Below, piece after piece: positions 8,961 to 40,899 of a stretch of 64,000 bases of DNA (within the stretch, counting starts at the first letter, position 1; each line of letters opens with the position of its first letter). The notes under the pieces were generated by a model. That model was not told the origin of the DNA. It saw only the letters and a list, made by a program, of their open reading frames with translations, and searched no databases. The stretch is from Rhodopseudomonas palustris HaA2. Lineage in GTDB: Bacteria; Pseudomonadota; Alphaproteobacteria; Rhizobiales; Xanthobacteraceae. The stretch spans positions 3,100,001 to 3,164,000 of the forward strand of contig NC_007778.1 of NCBI RefSeq assembly GCF_000013365.1, read 5' to 3'. Position numbers and translations under genes: made by a program.

Positions 8961-9344
8961 TCAATCCTTCAGATCGTCCGGCACCTTGCCGCCATTGGCG
9001 GCGAGCTTGGCCATCACCTGCTTGTGCAGCCAGATGTTCATGCTGGCGCTGTCGCCGGTGTCGCCGGTGTAGCCGAGCTCCTTGGCGAGCTCCTTGCGCG
9101 CCGACAGGCTGGAATCGATATCCAGCGCCTTCATCAGGTCGACGATCGAGGTGCGCCACTCCAGCTTCTCGCCCTTGGCCTTCACGGCCTGGTCGAGGAT
9201 CGGGGCGACATCGACGGTTGCACCCGAACTCCCCGGCGCCGGCGCGGTTCCCGGAGCGGCCGTGCTCGTACCTGCGCTGCCGCCCGGCGCGGCGTCCGCG
9301 CTGCTGCCGAAAATCGCGCCCATGATCTTGCCGAAAATGCTCAT
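8961..9344 (-). CDS. DUF3597 family protein
   Basis: 127 residues from ATG 9344, preceded by GGAGAG. It begins MSIFGKIMGAIFG, followed by an Ala/Gly/Pro-rich linker (about 15-42) and a helical DUF3597 domain (VDVAPILDQAVKAKGEKLEW ... DLMKALDID ... MNIWLHKQVMAKLAANGGKVP). The family is widespread in alphaproteobacteria, sometimes LysM-associated, with no known activity. Confidence 0.85.
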   Translation of the reverse strand: MSIFGKIMGAIFGSSADAAPGGSAGTSTAAPGTAPAPGSSGATVDVAPILDQAVKAKGEKLEWRTSIVDLMKALDIDSSLSARKELAKELGYTGDTGDSASMNIWLHKQVMAKLAANGGKVPDDLKD

Positions 9345-9801
9345 TCGTCTCTCCAGGGTAAGGGACTCTTGGCCTGGCCACGACGATTTGCGCCGCGCCC
9401 GGCAGGCGAAGCTACCGCGTCGCGGCGAGCTTGCCAAATATGTCAACGCCGTGAAGCCGGGGATGGTGCAGCGCGAATGAACTAATTATTTGTTCGCATC
9501 TGCACGCAAACAGCCCGACCCTGGTGGAACTAATCGGCGCCGCAACTAACTGCGCCGCGCGGCGCCGCGACAAATCCGCTCTCACCGAAGCGTGAGCAAC
9601 CAGCGGGTGCGATCGGCGTTAGGCTATCGTCACAGGTCGCGGCAAAGCCCAGGTCACAGGACCAGTTCGCTCGTTGCTCTCGCGTCTGATTGAAGTGCTC
9701 CTGCTCGTGTCCGCACCGAACCAAGCCCGGCCCGCCTCATCCGGCGAAGGATCCGGTCCACAGCACGTGCCGTCACATGTGCCCACACGGGAGAAACGAG
9801 C
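9345..9801. other. Divergent intergenic region, DUF3597 / DUF2189 genes
   Basis: 457 nt without a gene I can support. The central part (9470-9560) is less GC-rich and carries two identical 8-nt direct repeats GAACTAAT (9479-9486 and 9527-9534) and a related AACTAAC, possibly regulator half-sites. The downstream gene has GGGAG just before its ATG. Confidence 0.35.
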
Positions 9802-10704
9802 ATGGCCACGATCTATCCTGCCGAAGCCAGTGACGCCCGCCCGATCGGCGCGGCGGCCGAGCCGTCGGTTCATCGTATCGCTCTTGCCGACCTGCACGAC
9901 GCGCTGCGGCGCGGCTGGGACGACTTCAAGGCGGTGCCCAGCCACGCCGTGATGCTGTGCGTGATCTATCCGGTGCTCGGCCTGGTGCTGGCGCGGCTTG
10001 TGCTCGGCTATTCGGTGCTGCCGCTGCTGTTTCCGCTCGCCGCCGGCTTCGCGCTGATCGGGCCGTTCGCAGCCCTCGGGCTGTACGAACTGAGCCGCCG
10101 ACGCAAGGCCGGCGAGGATGCCTCGGCGTGGCACGCCGTCGACGTGCTGCGTTCGCCGTCGATCGGGGCGATGCTAGGGCTCGGCGCGATCCTGTTCGCC
10201 GTGTTCGGGGTGTGGATCGCGACCGCGCAGGGCATCTATGTCGCCACCTTCGGCCATGCGCCGGCGGCGGCGATCCCGGATTTCGTCACCCGTGTGCTGA
10301 CCACGCCGGAAGGCTGGAGCCTGATCGCGATCGGCTGCGGTGTCGGCTTCATGTTCGCGGTCGCGGCGCTGTGCGTCAGCGTGGTGGCGTTTCCGATGAT
10401 GCTCGACCGTCAGGCCGGGGTCGGCGCAGCGGTGACGGCGTCGTTGCGCGTCGCCGCGCGCAATCCGCTGGAAATCGCCGCCTGGGGCCTGATCGTGGCC
10501 GCGCTGCTGGTGCTGGGCTCGCTGCCGGCCTTCCTCGGCCTCGCGGTGGTCATCCCGCTGCTCGGCCACGCCACCTGGCATCTCTACCGCAAGGTGATCG
10601 AGCCCAATCCGCATCCGCCGCAGATTCCCCCGCCGAACCCGATCAAGCGTTCCGCGGCCGACTTCCCCGCGACGCTGCTGCAGTGGAAGCGCAAGGCGGG
10701 CTAG
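9802..10704 (+). CDS. DUF2189 family integral membrane protein
   Basis: 300 residues with about six transmembrane helices (roughly 48-67, 73-97, 124-148, 172-200, 223-245, 245-258) after a 40-residue cytoplasmic N-terminus containing the DUF2189 opening (ALRRGWDDFKAVPSHA). The motif GPFAALGLYELSRRR is also typical. The function of the family is unknown. Pro-rich C-terminal tail. A perfect 10-bp hairpin follows the stop codon. Confidence 0.85.
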   Translation: MATIYPAEASDARPIGAAAEPSVHRIALADLHDALRRGWDDFKAVPSHAVMLCVIYPVLGLVLARLVLGYSVLPLLFPLAAGFALIGPFAALGLYELSRRRKAGEDASAWHAVDVLRSPSIGAMLGLGAILFAVFGVWIATAQGIYVATFGHAPAAAIPDFVTRVLTTPEGWSLIAIGCGVGFMFAVAALCVSVVAFPMMLDRQAGVGAAVTASLRVAARNPLEIAAWGLIVAALLVLGSLPAFLGLAVVIPLLGHATWHLYRKVIEPNPHPPQIPPPNPIKRSAADFPATLLQWKRKAG

Positions 10705-37271: not shown

Positions 37272-37379
37272 GCTGAAGCGACCCCCGACCCGTTTGATTC
37301 TGCGGCAGGGTGCACTTAACTATGGCTTGCATGGAAATCCAATGACGGCACAATCCCCGCAGGGGATATGGAGCGACAC

Positions 37380-37712
37380 ATGACCGACTCAAGCGTCACC
37401 ATCAGCGAACGGGCGGCGCGCCGGATCGGCGAGATCCTGAAGGGCGAAGGCGACGGCGCGATGCTGCGGATCAGCGTCGAGGGCGGCGGCTGCTCGGGAT
37501 TCCAGTACAAGTTCGACGTCGATCGCGCCCGGACCGACGACGACGTCGTTATCGCACGCGACGGCGCCGTCGTGCTGGTCGATTCCGCCTCGGCGCCGTT
37601 CCTCGCCGGCTCGGAAGTCGACTTCGTCGACGACCTGATTGGCGCGTCGTTCCGGGTCAACAACCCGAACGCCACCGCATCCTGCGGCTGCGGGACGAGT
37701 TTCTCGATCTGA
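37380..37712 (+). CDS. erpA: Iron-sulfur cluster insertion protein ErpA (A-type carrier)
   Basis: 110 residues from ATG 37380. HesB/IscA fold with the three cluster cysteines: one in ISVEGGGCSGFQYKF (C38) and two in the C-terminal CGCGTSFSI. It delivers Fe-S clusters to apo-proteins. A-type carriers next to dgt and xth are a recurrent alphaproteobacterial arrangement; here the Cache/ion-channel pair lies between erpA and xth. Confidence 0.93.
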   Translation: MTDSSVTISERAARRIGEILKGEGDGAMLRISVEGGGCSGFQYKFDVDRARTDDDVVIARDGAVVLVDSASAPFLAGSEVDFVDDLIGASFRVNNPNATASCGCGTSFSI

Positions 37713-37954
37713 CACCCTTTGAACGGAGCGCGCGCCGCTTGGTTTGCTGCTCCCCGGAGCAGAAAATTGGGCTGTCGATGCTGAGACGCTGCGTCAAGAA
37801 AAACGCAGCACACATCATTGCTCACGGTTCCCACTTGCATTAATGGCGGCACTCGAACGATCCGCCGGACCAGCATCGCGAACAGTACGTTGGACGGACA
37901 CGGCCTGCGCCCGCGCGCAGGTCGACGACGGGTCATGCGCGTCTGGAATTGTCG
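37713..37954. promoter_or_regulatory. Upstream region of the dCache/ion-channel pair, two inverted repeats
   Basis: 242 nt after erpA. It contains CTGCTC-CCCG-GAGCAG (37747-37762) and GCTGCGT-N8-ACGCAGC (37788-37809), either a terminator for erpA or operator sites for the sensor/channel unit. A TTGCTC ... ATTAAT pair at about 37818-37844 with 15-nt spacing is a poor promoter candidate. CTGGAA about 8 nt before ATG 37955 is the ribosome binding site. Confidence 0.35.
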
Positions 37955-38974
37955 ATGCCTGTGCCTGCCAGCGTCCCGCTCCCTCCCCGTCCCCTCACCA
38001 GCTTCCGCGTCGGCCTGATCACCGCGCTGGTGCTGGCGGCGCTCTTCGGCGTCATGATCGCGATCACCTTCTCGATGCAGAACGAGGTGATCGCGCGCGA
38101 CCGCGACAACCAGATGGCCGCGGTCAGCCAAGCGATCACCTCGGCGCTGGATCAGGCCGGACGCTTCGCGCTGACCCAGGCCGAGACGACTGCCCGCCAG
38201 ACCGGGATAAGCGGCGCTCTGGCGGCCGGTGATCGCGCCGCACTGTCCAACCTTGCCGGCGGCACCTACAATTATCTCAAGACACAGGGCGTGCCGGTGT
38301 TCGGCTTTCACGCCGCCGACATGACCTATCTGCTGCGACTGCACCTGCCCGACAAATTCGGCGACGACCTGACCAAGATTCGTCCGATGGTGCTCGCCGC
38401 CAACAAGACCAGGCACTCGCAAGTCGGGCTCGAAATCGGCGTCGCCGGCACCTTCGTGCGCGGCATTGCGGTGATCCACGACGGCGACCGCTTCGTCGGC
38501 ACGGTGGAGGCCGGCCTCAACCTCGAACCGATCCTCGAGCAGGTCAAAACGCTGACCAACGCCGACATCGCCGTGGTGCTCAGCCAATCGCTCACAGGCC
38601 TGCCGCCGCATGGTGCCGGCAATACTAGCGCCGGCGAACAATTCGGTGACCTGATCGCATTGGCCTCGACCGATATGCCATTGTTCAGTGGCCTGCTGCG
38701 CGAGGGCGCAATCCGGCTGGCACGCACCCGCGAAGTGGCTTCGTATCGGATTCGCGACGACAGCGGCGCTGTTCTGGTACAGCCGCTGATCGATTTTTCC
38801 GGCCGGATGATCGGAAACGTCGCCGCCGTCAAAGTCTTCCCGACACATGGCGCGGCTCTGCAGCGGACACGCACCGAGCTGATCGCGGCGGCGCTGATCG
38901 GCGCCATCCTCGCCTTTGTCGTCTTCGCGGTGATGGCGCGGATGATCGCCATGCGCGGCGGCCCGCAGGGATGA
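37955..38974 (+). CDS. Double-Cache (dCache_3-like) membrane sensor without output domain
   Basis: 339 residues from ATG 37955. Topology: short cytoplasmic N-terminus, TM1 about 17-41, a large periplasmic domain about 42-303 and TM2 about 307-330, ending only about 9 residues later. The periplasmic part has the features of double-Cache sensors of chemoreceptors: a long first helix, YNYLKTQGVPVFGFHAADMTYLLRLHLPDKFGDDL, MVLAANKTRHSQVGLEIGVAGTFVRGIAVI, GTVEAGLNLEPIL. In those proteins HAMP plus a signalling, kinase or cyclase domain follows TM2; here there is none. The stop overlaps the start of a pentameric ligand-gated channel gene (ATGA), so the sensor is most likely a ligand-binding partner or modulator of that channel; this is inference. 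Confidence 0.88.
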   Translation: MPVPASVPLPPRPLTSFRVGLITALVLAALFGVMIAITFSMQNEVIARDRDNQMAAVSQAITSALDQAGRFALTQAETTARQTGISGALAAGDRAALSNLAGGTYNYLKTQGVPVFGFHAADMTYLLRLHLPDKFGDDLTKIRPMVLAANKTRHSQVGLEIGVAGTFVRGIAVIHDGDRFVGTVEAGLNLEPILEQVKTLTNADIAVVLSQSLTGLPPHGAGNTSAGEQFGDLIALASTDMPLFSGLLREGAIRLARTREVASYRIRDDSGAVLVQPLIDFSGRMIGNVAAVKVFPTHGAALQRTRTELIAAALIGAILAFVVFAVMARMIAMRGGPQG

Positions 38975-40032
38975 GAGAACTGCTGACACTGCTTATCTTG
39001 TTGGCCGCGGGCTTGCTCGCCGACCCGGCCCAGGCGCGCGCCGGCAAGGAAGGCGTGCCTGACGGCGTCGAACTGCCGATGCAGGTGCGGGTCGGACTGC
39101 ACGTCCTCGACATCACCGAGGTCAAGGAAGTCGCCGGTCGCGCCCGGCTCCACATTGAAGTCACGCAACGCTGGACCGACCCGCGCCGGCGATTCGATCC
39201 GGTCGAGGTCGGCGCGACCCGCGTCGATCGCGTCGGCGCAGAAGCCGATCAGTTCCTCGCGGGAATTTGGACGCCGGGCGTCGCGATCGACAACCAAATC
39301 GGCGAACCGCGCTCCAGAACCCAGGCGATCTCGGCCTACGCCGACGGCAGCATCGTGATGGTGGAGCGCTACGAAGCCGACTTCCGCGTCGCGATCGACA
39401 TGTCGGCGTTTCCGATCGATCGCCAGAAGCTGACGCTGTCGTTCTCGCTGCCGCGCTACGCCAAGCAAGAAGCGATGCTCGTCACCACAGAATCGGATCG
39501 TCAGTTCTCCCGGATCGACAACAAGCTGTCGGTGATCGACTGGCGGCCGCTCGATCTGACCTTCTTCTATGACGAAGCGACCGGCTGGAACGCACGCAGC
39601 TATTCGCGGCTCAACTCGACGGTCGGGATCGAGCGGCTGTCCGAGCGCTATCTGCTCCGGCTGTTCATCCCGATCCTGTCGACGCTGGCGGTGTCGCTGT
39701 TCGTGCTGTGGATTCCGGGCGCGGCGCCGAAGGATCACGGCGGCCTGGTGTTCTCGGCTCTGCTGGCCCTGGCGGCGATCAGCTTCACCTACGAGGCGAG
39801 CTTTCCCGGCTCGATCTCGCTGAACACCCCGATCGCCAAGATCATCTCGCTCGGCTATTTCTATCTCGTGGTGGTCGTCCTGATCGATGCCCTGCTGTGG
39901 AAGCCCTGCGCCGATCCGACCGCGCGACTACATGGGCTCGCGTCCGGAATTCGTGCGCACAGCAGATGGGCGCTGCCGTCGATCATGGTGATCCTGTGCC
40001 TGGCGCTTGTGGTGCGCGGTCTACCGGCGTGA
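38971..40032 (+). CDS. Pentameric ligand-gated ion channel (prokaryotic Cys-loop receptor homologue)
   Basis: 353 residues: signal peptide about 1-23, extracellular beta-sandwich about 35-225, four transmembrane helices M1 about 227-248, M2 about 254-277, M3 about 286-310, M4 about 332-350. Family landmarks: RWTDPRRRFDP (67-77), loop A WTPGVAIDN (100-108), DGSIVMVERYEADF, the Pro-loop FPIDRQ (147-152) without the two flanking cysteines, as in bacterial members, and Pro234 in M1. Aligned by eye with remembered GLIC, M2 has no gaps and gives Lys at -2', Asp -1', Gly 2', Ser 6', Leu 9' and Ala 13'. It should form a homopentameric channel in the inner membrane gated by a periplasmic ligand. Translationally coupled to the upstream dCache gene. 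Ligand and ion selectivity are unknown. Confidence 0.93.
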   Translation: MRELLTLLILLAAGLLADPAQARAGKEGVPDGVELPMQVRVGLHVLDITEVKEVAGRARLHIEVTQRWTDPRRRFDPVEVGATRVDRVGAEADQFLAGIWTPGVAIDNQIGEPRSRTQAISAYADGSIVMVERYEADFRVAIDMSAFPIDRQKLTLSFSLPRYAKQEAMLVTTESDRQFSRIDNKLSVIDWRPLDLTFFYDEATGWNARSYSRLNSTVGIERLSERYLLRLFIPILSTLAVSLFVLWIPGAAPKDHGGLVFSALLALAAISFTYEASFPGSISLNTPIAKIISLGYFYLVVVVLIDALLWKPCADPTARLHGLASGIRAHSRWALPSIMVILCLALVVRGLPA

Positions 40033-40044
40033 GGTGGTCATCGA

Positions 40045-40899
40045 TCAACGCGCGTCGGCGAACAGCGCCCGCGCATTGCCGTGCGCGATTTTCGCTGCGG
40101 TGGCAGGTGGCAGCTGCACGAGCCAAGCCCGATAACCGGCCATGATCTCGCCATAGGCCGCCCAGCGCTCGTTGACCCAGGTGTCCGACCCGAGCAGAAA
40201 GCGATCGGGAAACCGCTCGATCAACGCGCGCCACTCCGGCGTCAACGCACCGCCGCCGCCAACGATCCCGCTGCGATAGGACAGCTCGCCCACCAGCTTG
40301 GGATATCTTTCGAGTAGCGCGGCGACGCGATCGGTCGAAAGGCCGAAACCGGTATGCGCCCAGATGATCCGAGCGCGCGGATTGTGCCGCATCAGGATCT
40401 CGACGGCGTCCTCGTCGGCGTGGGCGTGCAGATAGAGGTCGTGTGCAACCGCGAAATCGACGGTCTTCTTCACCACTTCGGTGTCGGCCGCCGAGCCGGT
40501 CAGGTGAAATTCGCCGATGCCGCGGTAGTATCCGCGCTTGAACTCGTCCTGCACCAGATCGAAGATCACCGGGTCCCTGAACCAGGTCTGGATGTCCGGC
40601 CGAACCCGATAGGGCCGAATGAACGGCACGATTTGCAGCCCATCCGCGTTGGCCTCCATCAGCACATGGGTGCCCTTGTTGGGGCGGCTGGTCGCGAGGA
40701 TTCCGGTGACGCGATGGCGCTTCAGCAACGCCAAGACTTCATCCGGCTGATAGTAGGGCGCAGGCTCCCAGTTGTAGTGCAGATGCGCATCGAAGATTTC
40801 GATCGGCTCGACGGCCATGCTTCGACCGGAGGCCAGCCCGATCAGCCCGAACGCGACGAGGCTCGCAACCACCCGACGCACCGACAGGCGCGACCTCAT
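40045..40899 (-). CDS. Exported amidohydrolase (PF04909-type)
   Basis: 284 residues from ATG 40899, whose ATGA overlaps the stop of the RND pump gene. N-terminal signal RSRLSVRRVVASLVAFGLIGLASGRSMA. TIM-barrel amidohydrolase with metal ligands H39/H41 (FDAHLHYN), a Glu in GIGEFHLTG, His in LYLHAHADEDAVE, His in IIWAHTGFG and Asp in LLGSDTW. The substrate is unknown. Coupling to an efflux system is unusual and suggests that it processes or detoxifies the pumped compound in the periplasm. Convergent with the ion-channel gene, 12 nt apart. Confidence 0.88.
   Translation of the reverse strand: MRSRLSVRRVVASLVAFGLIGLASGRSMAVEPIEIFDAHLHYNWEPAPYYQPDEVLALLKRHRVTGILATSRPNKGTHVLMEANADGLQIVPFIRPYRVRPDIQTWFRDPVIFDLVQDEFKRGYYRGIGEFHLTGSAADTEVVKKTVDFAVAHDLYLHAHADEDAVEILMRHNPRARIIWAHTGFGLSTDRVAALLERYPKLVGELSYRSGIVGGGGALTPEWRALIERFPDRFLLGSDTWVNERWAAYGEIMAGYRAWLVQLPPATAAKIAHGNARALFADAR

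Follow-up and report, generated by a model that had tools for sequence, protein, structure and literature searches.

What is a periplasmic sensor that has no output domain doing beside an ion channel? The question is raised by a locus of Rhodopseudomonas palustris HaA2, where, within the window that we analysed (64,000 nucleotides of contig NC_007778.1, positions 3,100,001 to 3,164,000), a gene for a membrane-anchored double-Cache (dCache) protein overlaps the gene for a pentameric ligand-gated ion channel (pLGIC) subunit. To our knowledge, little has been established about the stimuli and the roles of the nerve-receptor relatives found in bacteria; a clan of channels accompanied by a sensor whose family lends itself to ligand identification offers a direct route to the channel's stimulus. 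Our analysis makes it nearly certain that sensor and channel are a functional pair, and we put at roughly 0.6 the probability of our reading, drawn from sequences and models, in which the dCache protein acts as an auxiliary subunit that senses a ligand and thereby gates or modulates the channel. The central idea is already in print, having been put forward some twenty years ago for one genus (Tasneem et al., PMC549065). New here is the scale of the pairing: what was a one-genus anecdote becomes the rule for a whole clan, with a probable origin and with residues that lend themselves to testing.

Sensor and channel encoded by the locus

The sensor reading frame runs on the + strand from the ATG at 37955 (an in-frame TTG lies at 37949) to the TGA at 38972–38974 and encodes 339 amino acids. 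It closes in ATGA, the ATG of which (38971–38973) starts the channel frame of 353 amino acids, which ends at 40032 on the same strand. This 4-nt overlap, which the first-pass annotation of the window had already described, likely leads to translational coupling of the two genes.

The channel protein matches Pfam family Neur_chan_LBD (PF02931) with an E-value of 1.1e-16 and 61.3 bits against a cut-off of 26, and is the sole PF02931 match in the 5.33-Mb single-contig genome. The Cys-loop receptor landmarks that had been proposed for it are all present in the translation: W100-TPGVAID-N108 (loop A), the Pro-loop F147-PIDR-Q152, P234 in M1, L265 at position 9′ of M2, and four transmembrane (TM) helices. 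We built AlphaFold2 (AF2) models of both proteins with 71-row alignments. The channel model (predicted local distance difference test score, pLDDT, 88.4) shows both hallmarks of a pLGIC, a beta-sandwich with the Pro-loop and four following membrane helices in a receptor-like fold, and it aligns with chains of GABA-A, RDL and glycine receptors at Z scores of about 25 in VIA-align (RDL 9siq_A: Z 25.1, root-mean-square deviation (rmsd) 3.3 over 322 residues). By sequence, its closest solved relatives among the matches listed are structures of the Gloeobacter proton-gated channel GLIC (profile E-value 4e-36). There is no fused N-terminal sensor domain of the DeCLIC type; just a leader helix (residues 2–16) precedes the first strand at residue 37 of the model. 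Alignment with GLIC, in the conventional prime numbering of M2, puts D255 at −1′, S262 at 6′, L265 at 9′, A269 at 13′ and F272 at 16′, and these residues suggest a cation-selective pore with hydrophobic gates.

The sensor matches dCache_3 (PF14827; E-value 9.3e-20, 71.7 bits against a cut-off of 25.7), its sole domain above cut-off. In the model (pLDDT 92.5), two long helices flank a dCache fold with two Cache subdomains, the first helix (residues 14–80, 67 residues) running from TM1 into the first Cache and the last (residues 296–334) holding TM2. The protein is thus a dCache_3 sensor both by its Pfam match and by its double-Cache fold between two membrane helices. The limits of the membrane spans, including the end of TM2, were set by eye from the translation, and about 11 residues follow TM2. 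No HAMP, kinase or MCPsignal domain was found in the protein with Pfam, at E-values up to 1 for HAMP and kinase, which bears out the earlier description of a sensor without cytoplasmic output; the combination of HAMP and MCPsignal that marks a methyl-accepting chemotaxis protein (MCP) is lacking.

The best structural match of the membrane-distal Cache subdomain is CitA (1p0z_A; Z 19.4, rmsd 1.8 over 130 residues, 22% identity), and the subdomain has the fold of the citrate and C4-dicarboxylate sensors CitA, DcuS and DctB. As a whole, the sensor aligns with DctB at a Z score of 16.2 (rmsd 4.7 over 207 residues) and more weakly with the dCache domains of chemoreceptors (Z 13–14). A search of the distal Cache piece by sequence against the PDB gave zero matches.

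Distribution and co-divergence of the pair

We surveyed 1,472 genomes for PF02931, with 391 from the same family, 297 from the order, 385 from the class and 398 from the phylum, and found matches in 18, 19, 5 and 7 genomes, respectively, each count including HaA2. Forty-eight channel loci, that of HaA2 among them, were scanned together with their flanks by iterated profiles of sensor and channel. A dCache gene lies immediately 5′ of the channel gene and on the same strand at 29 of the 48 loci, including 18 of 18 within the family. Since all 17 other family loci keep the same two genes in the same order, down to channel identities of 25–28%, the pairing exceeds chance. The 19 loci that we call unpaired gave no dCache_3-type profile match in the stretch examined (up to 18 kb); two of them are short of sequence, L092 with 429 nt upstream and L090 being a 3-kb contig in which the channel is cut. 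The first-pass annotation had named homologous channels without the dCache gene in most genomes as a refuting observation; on this point the survey gives a mixed answer, with 19 of 48 loci unpaired but the 17 of them that could be placed in a tree falling outside the paired clan.

A second scan, based on named genomes, a channel alignment and one M2 pattern, yielded at least 80 loci, of which 80 of 80 have a dCache gene upstream; since the loci were chosen by the M2 pattern, this count holds for that clan only. Many of the genomes are shared with the PF02931 survey, and removal of 16 duplicate rows gave 112 distinct rows (93 paired). Paired loci occur in four phyla: Pseudomonadota, Myxococcota, Acidobacteriota and Verrucomicrobiota. 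In a tree of 109 channels, from which two fragments (L090, L095) and a locus with both genes broken (L174) were left off, a single branch with a Shimodaira–Hasegawa-like approximate likelihood ratio (SH-aLRT) support of 100 splits 92 paired from 17 unpaired channels; the tree comes from a quick search, and its unpaired rows have long branches. On the paired side, none of the 92 channels is without a sensor, down to identities of 20–25%. A −4 overlap is possible at the junction of 78 of the 92 pairs and a −1 overlap in 5 more, with other spacing in 9.

The broken locus belongs to Rhizobium sp. RCAM05350, in which sensor and channel genes are both fragmented, a joint decay as expected of partners. 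A clade A module (the clade of the HaA2 pair) with 57% identity in the channel was also found in a betaproteobacterial record, Acidovorax delafieldii 2AN (L119), and represents either a transfer or a foreign contig. Closer to HaA2, the channel of R. pseudopalustris DSM 123 is 87% identical over the best segment, and the channel is present in 7 of 16 genomes of the genus, each time with a sensor.

We take the module to consist of two genes because, among the 14 largest clusters of neighbours (flanks up to 5 kb), any that is constant in position is shared by at most 8 of the 80 loci. The largest cluster, from 13 loci, was rejected as a third gene: its position and strand are scattered, and an example open reading frame (ORF) resembles an antisense frame. 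Natural fusions of sensor and channel were not found among the loci read; three long channel ORFs (L026, L148, L155) overlap the sensor in a different frame.

The association also holds when followed from the sensor. We ran the sensor profile over 382 family genomes and counted 17 channel genomes rather than 18, as one of them (G387) was absent among the matches. All 17 matches with E-values of 5.3e-119 or better lie at channel loci. The next match (7.8e-61) lies within a frame of 944 residues, and the further matches listed fall in frames of 570 to 1164 residues, except for one of 197 residues (G288) and one of 225 residues at a contig end (G212). The G288 frame (L209:2140-2730, 196 amino acids) stands by itself as a dCache_3 frame in a genome that looks complete and has no channel match; the frame stops within the dCache domain and may be a disrupted receptor gene. 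Of the 382 genomes, 135 have some match to the profile. All 16 of the long frames that were scanned have dCache_3, MCPsignal and HAMP matches (one HAMP below cut-off), and the closest kin of the sensor in this bacterial family are therefore chemoreceptors. A tree of 51 of the 90 aligned sensors together with 16 chemoreceptor pieces has a branch, with SH-aLRT support of 98, that sets the sensors apart, and the sensor groups echo the channel clades.

Sensor and channel also diverge in step. Across 90 pairs (here and in the sensor counts below, L174, L156 and L153, which are broken or cut, are left out), sensor and channel distances correlate with r = 0.89. Within clades, r is 0.97 for A (35 pairs), 0.88 for B (29) and 0.86 for C (26), and none of 999 permutations reached these values in any clade. 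At least two genomes carry two modules of different clades, each with its own sensor: Rhizobium terrae NAU-18 (L145 and L158) and G454 (L078 and L085). In NAU-18 the two channels are 23% identical, as are the two sensors; each sensor groups with sensors of its own channel's clade, and its nearest sensors correspond to the nearest channels of its partner, bar one of three for L145. The proposal of the first-pass annotation that the two proteins work together is thus strongly supported, by a single clan without a sensor-less member, two-way co-occurrence and mirrored trees.

To these can be added residues that set paired channels apart. Of the 92 paired channels, 91 have a Trp aligned with W206 of loop C (the letters GW occur in 90), and none of the 17 unpaired ones does; the loop-B aromatic position has Phe, Trp or Tyr in 0 of 92 paired channels; the 17 unpaired channels have Phe (10) or Leu (7) there. 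From the presence of a loop-C Trp and the absence of a loop-B aromatic residue it follows that the classical ligand pocket, as judged from the alignment, is altered just where the sensor partner appears. W100 of loop A is present in 92 of 92 paired channels. All 92 paired channels, and none of the 17 unpaired ones, carry the motif [SN]F[TS] at 271–273, a distinction that is partly built in by the M2 selection pattern.

On the sensor side, R128 is present in 90 of 90 sequences, D138 and R143 in 89 each and E185 in 88. R169 is present in all 64 clade A and B sensors but in none of the 26 from clade C, 25 of which have Phe there, and the ligands thus probably differ between sensor clades. In a weak match (E-value 0.02), the column of the profile that holds R169 is aligned with an Arg in the LRGK stretch of CitA, where this residue binds citrate. 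In TM2, L309, G316, A320 and F324 are conserved in 33–35 of 35 clade A sensors. These sensors stop just past TM2, as in HaA2, whereas 54 of the 90 (54 of 55 in clades B and C) extend 36–74 residues further, the short-tailed exception being L137 of clade B. One reading is that the HaA2 clade lost a cytoplasmic stub and that L137 lost it independently. A HAMP-like identity of the clade B and C tails was dropped, as Pfam gave no HAMP or MCPsignal match at E ≤ 0.01 in the four long-tailed sensors scanned.

A possible mode of action and its alternatives

The two genes are adjacent, overlap in most pairs and are inherited as a unit. To the computed pairing, single clan, co-occurrence, co-divergence and chemoreceptor kinship we add a complex, a ligand and a gating step that we infer. 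The locus would be an obligate bicistronic module, in which the channel is served by a periplasmic sensor that derives from a chemoreceptor and keeps its sensory half (TM1–dCache_3–TM2). As the sensor lacks an output domain, the two products very probably act on one another. The sensor would be co-translated with the channel and would assemble beside it as an auxiliary subunit. Gating may then change when the pocket of the distal Cache takes up a small molecule; since the distal subdomain is CitA-like, this molecule might conceivably be a carboxylate. The movement could reach the channel by the outer face of its periplasmic domain, by TM2 within the membrane or by both. Loop C, which faces the outer side of the pentamer, is a candidate contact, as it could be within reach of an adjacent sensor about as tall as the channel's periplasmic domain. 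The pore so opened or modulated is probably cation-selective in the HaA2 clade, where an acidic −1′ residue is found in 34 of 35 channels (23 of 29 in clade B), and a chemical signal of the MCP type would thereby be turned into an ionic one. As to how such a module arose, it is possible, if doubtful, that an MCP was stripped of its signalling part and that the remaining sensory half turned into a ligand-binding subunit of the channel, while the channel pocket was rebuilt, by loss of the loop-B aromatic and gain of the loop-C Trp, as a docking and transmission site for this partner.

Several observations weigh against the auxiliary-subunit reading. Mirrored distances show exclusive pairing rather than contact, since plain co-inheritance of linked genes also yields them. 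Inter-protein covariation (mutual information with average product correction, 90 pairs, effective number of sequences about 50 at 70% identity) revealed no interface, and the top covarying pairs mostly separate clades. TM2 is barely more conserved than the soluble part of the sensor (mean 0.73 versus 0.70, clade A plus one clade B row). Cache domains are usually dimeric, which leaves a symmetry mismatch with a five-fold channel. The long tails of the other sensors might have a function of their own. Only the fold points to a citrate-like ligand, and R169 is absent from all 26 clade C sensors; likewise, the acidic −1′ residue is present in just 11 of 28 clade C channels (unpaired: 8 of 17), and cation selectivity may therefore not extend to all. 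Finally, 8 of the 9 loci outside Pseudomonadota are from metagenome bins, in which a contig may be misplaced.

The dCache protein could instead be a partner for assembly, folding or trafficking of the channel, as RIC-3 and NACHO are for animal receptors, with a ligand pocket that is vestigial or merely stabilising. An obligate, membrane-bound protein encoded in a coupled unit with the channel would suit this role, and neither covariation nor model demonstrates signal transfer; nevertheless, the near-invariant R128, D138, R143 and E185 of the distal Cache would be unexpected in a protein that is only a chaperone, its pocket dead, and we regard this alternative as unlikely. Somewhat less probable still is a looser cooperation without a stable complex, in which the sensor would bind ligand, or hand it on, for use at the site within the channel itself, or in which each protein has a separate ligand. 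The "preliminary concentration or sensing" proposed in PMC549065 is of this kind, and the aromatics conserved at W100 and W206 of paired channels would fit it. However, a membrane-anchored Cache protein cannot be a diffusible carrier, and one-to-one retention and mirrored trees favour a tighter coupling, though co-inheritance alone would mirror the trees.

That the nearest relatives found are MCPs, and that the HaA2 genome itself has two dCache_3 MCP genes (L207, L208), raises the thought of a chemoreceptor without a head, incorporated into MCP dimers or arrays by its Cache and TM helices, the channel being regulated only indirectly. We consider this very unlikely, since the sensor has neither HAMP nor signalling tip and its strong stand-alone form was seen only with a channel in the 382 family genomes, despite the 135 with some match. 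The same restriction, that the strong form was never seen alone in these genomes, speaks against a purely incidental pairing of genes that co-travel by horizontal transfer without a joint function. Four-base overlaps are common in bacterial operons, and the patchy occurrence in the genus suits transfer and loss, but chance companionship is hard to reconcile with the absence of a sensor-less channel from the paired side of the tree down to 20–25% identity, and with the finding that, among the clusters shown, a third gene is constant in position at 8 of the 80 loci at most; we give it next to no credence. An auxiliary subunit that senses a ligand and acts on the channel remains our preferred account of the dCache protein.

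Surroundings of the locus and related systems

Features of the sensor–channel locus and their positions in the window
Feature	Position	Strand	Evidence
242-nt gap before the sensor gene, possible promoter place	37713..37954	+	inference
dCache_3 sensor gene: TM1, double Cache, TM2, tail of about 11 residues	37955..38974	+	Pfam PF14827, AF2, VIA-align
Sensor TM1, residues ~18–40	38006..38074	+	AF2 secondary structure, span by eye
Membrane-distal Cache subdomain, residues 59–196, CitA-like; holds R128, H130, D138, R143, R169	38129..38542	+	VIA-align, conservation counts
Sensor TM2, residues ~304–328	38864..38938	+	AF2, span by eye
ATGA stop/start overlap, 4 nt	38971..38974	+	read from sequence
pLGIC subunit gene, 353 residues	38971..40032	+	Pfam PF02931, GLIC profile match, VIA-align
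Periplasmic beta-sandwich, residues ~30–222	39058..39636	+	AF2
Loop C tip G205-W206, mark of dCache-paired channels	39583..39588	+	alignment of 92 paired and 17 unpaired channels
M1, residues ~225–247, with P234	39643..39711	+	AF2
M2 pore helix, residues ~253–277	39727..39801	+	GLIC alignment, AF2
M3, residues ~287–314	39829..39912	+	AF2
M4, residues ~321–350	39931..40020	+	AF2

A gene for Fe-S biosynthesis (37368–37712), presumably of the IscA/ErpA type, ends 242 nt 5′ of the sensor gene, and an amidohydrolase gene (40045–40899) lies 3′ of the channel gene on the opposite strand. Because of this upstream gap and the convergent downstream gene, sensor and channel stand as an isolated two-gene unit, and nothing ties either flanking gene to the module. 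A promoter scan of the region upstream of the sensor gene gave no match to a sigma-70-type consensus, and its two terminator-like matches are at background level (shuffled mean 1.6).

Unpaired channels are not necessarily without a sensor. Among 20 proteins scanned around them, another kind of sensor gene adjoins the channel at no fewer than two loci, namely, another kind of Cache at L082 and a binding protein at L093. At L082 (7944-11793), the channel gene (9328-10392) follows a gene for a pyridoxal-phosphate-dependent decarboxylase at a distance of 10 nt; 12 nt downstream lies a gene for a two-TM sensor with an MCP-like PDC match, a dCache_1 match below cut-off and an extended cytoplasmic portion resembling a degenerate kinase. 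This is perhaps a second, separate union of channel and Cache, with an amine-making enzyme. At L093 (7614-10013), a gene for a phosphonate-type periplasmic binding protein (PBP) lies 27 nt downstream of the channel gene, an arrangement that fits the PBP-II neighbourhoods described in PMC549065. A third unpaired channel (L083:8186-11496) has an extracellular solute-binding protein gene on the opposite strand and a DUF5624 gene 15 nt downstream.

Compared with known channels, the HaA2 protein has the architecture of GLIC and ELIC. GLIC is proton-gated, and we know of no partner for it; the differences at loop C and at the loop-B position were counted against the 17 unpaired channels, a comparison outside which GLIC and ELIC stand. 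The sensor has its sensory fold and kinship in common with dCache_3 MCPs and with CitA and DctB, from which it differs in having no HAMP, MCP signalling domain or kinase. The alpha2delta subunit of voltage-gated calcium channels, a Cache-bearing auxiliary subunit, may be a functional analogue, although its channel is unrelated and its anchoring different. The Cache domains of alpha2delta are mentioned in PMC549065 as well.

The nearest precedent is the operon predicted in the same work, where a Rhodopseudomonas channel of the acetylcholine-receptor type (ART-LGIC) is encoded with a stand-alone Cache protein and the two "may similarly cooperate functionally" (PMC549065). Genus, gene types, operon idea and proposed cooperation are those of the HaA2 pair, which likewise consists of a stand-alone Cache gene adjacent to a single-module channel gene. 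The Cache–channel operon was seen there in "one bacterium", whose strain may differ from HaA2; here the arrangement extends to one clan, with pairs in four phyla, and the kinship with chemoreceptors and the signature residues are added. When the first-pass annotation stated that it knew of no characterised system of this kind, it was right as far as the literature found goes, but the Rhodopseudomonas operon and its functional reading had been published in 2004/5. Among open-licence PMC papers, judged by titles and the openings of abstracts, we found no later work on a pairing of pLGIC and Cache, which may exist elsewhere; the main text of an inventory (PMC4795631) has none of the words "cache", "operon" and "Rhodopseudomonas".

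Periplasmic sensor or regulatory domains are also found fused to bacterial pLGICs, as in the channels with Cache, MCP-N or PBP-I domains listed in PMC549065 and in DeCLIC with its fused N-terminal domain (PMC12664993, where "cache" is absent from the main text). In HaA2, by contrast, the sensor is a separate protein anchored twice in the membrane, and stoichiometry and contact are thus left free. On the more doubtful view of its origin set out above, the pair would be an MCP-derived, two-chain ionotropic receptor, a bacterial receptor-channel of heteromeric make-up in which a Cache protein is the obligate auxiliary subunit. The pair would also serve as a minimal model of how an auxiliary sensor controls a pentameric channel.

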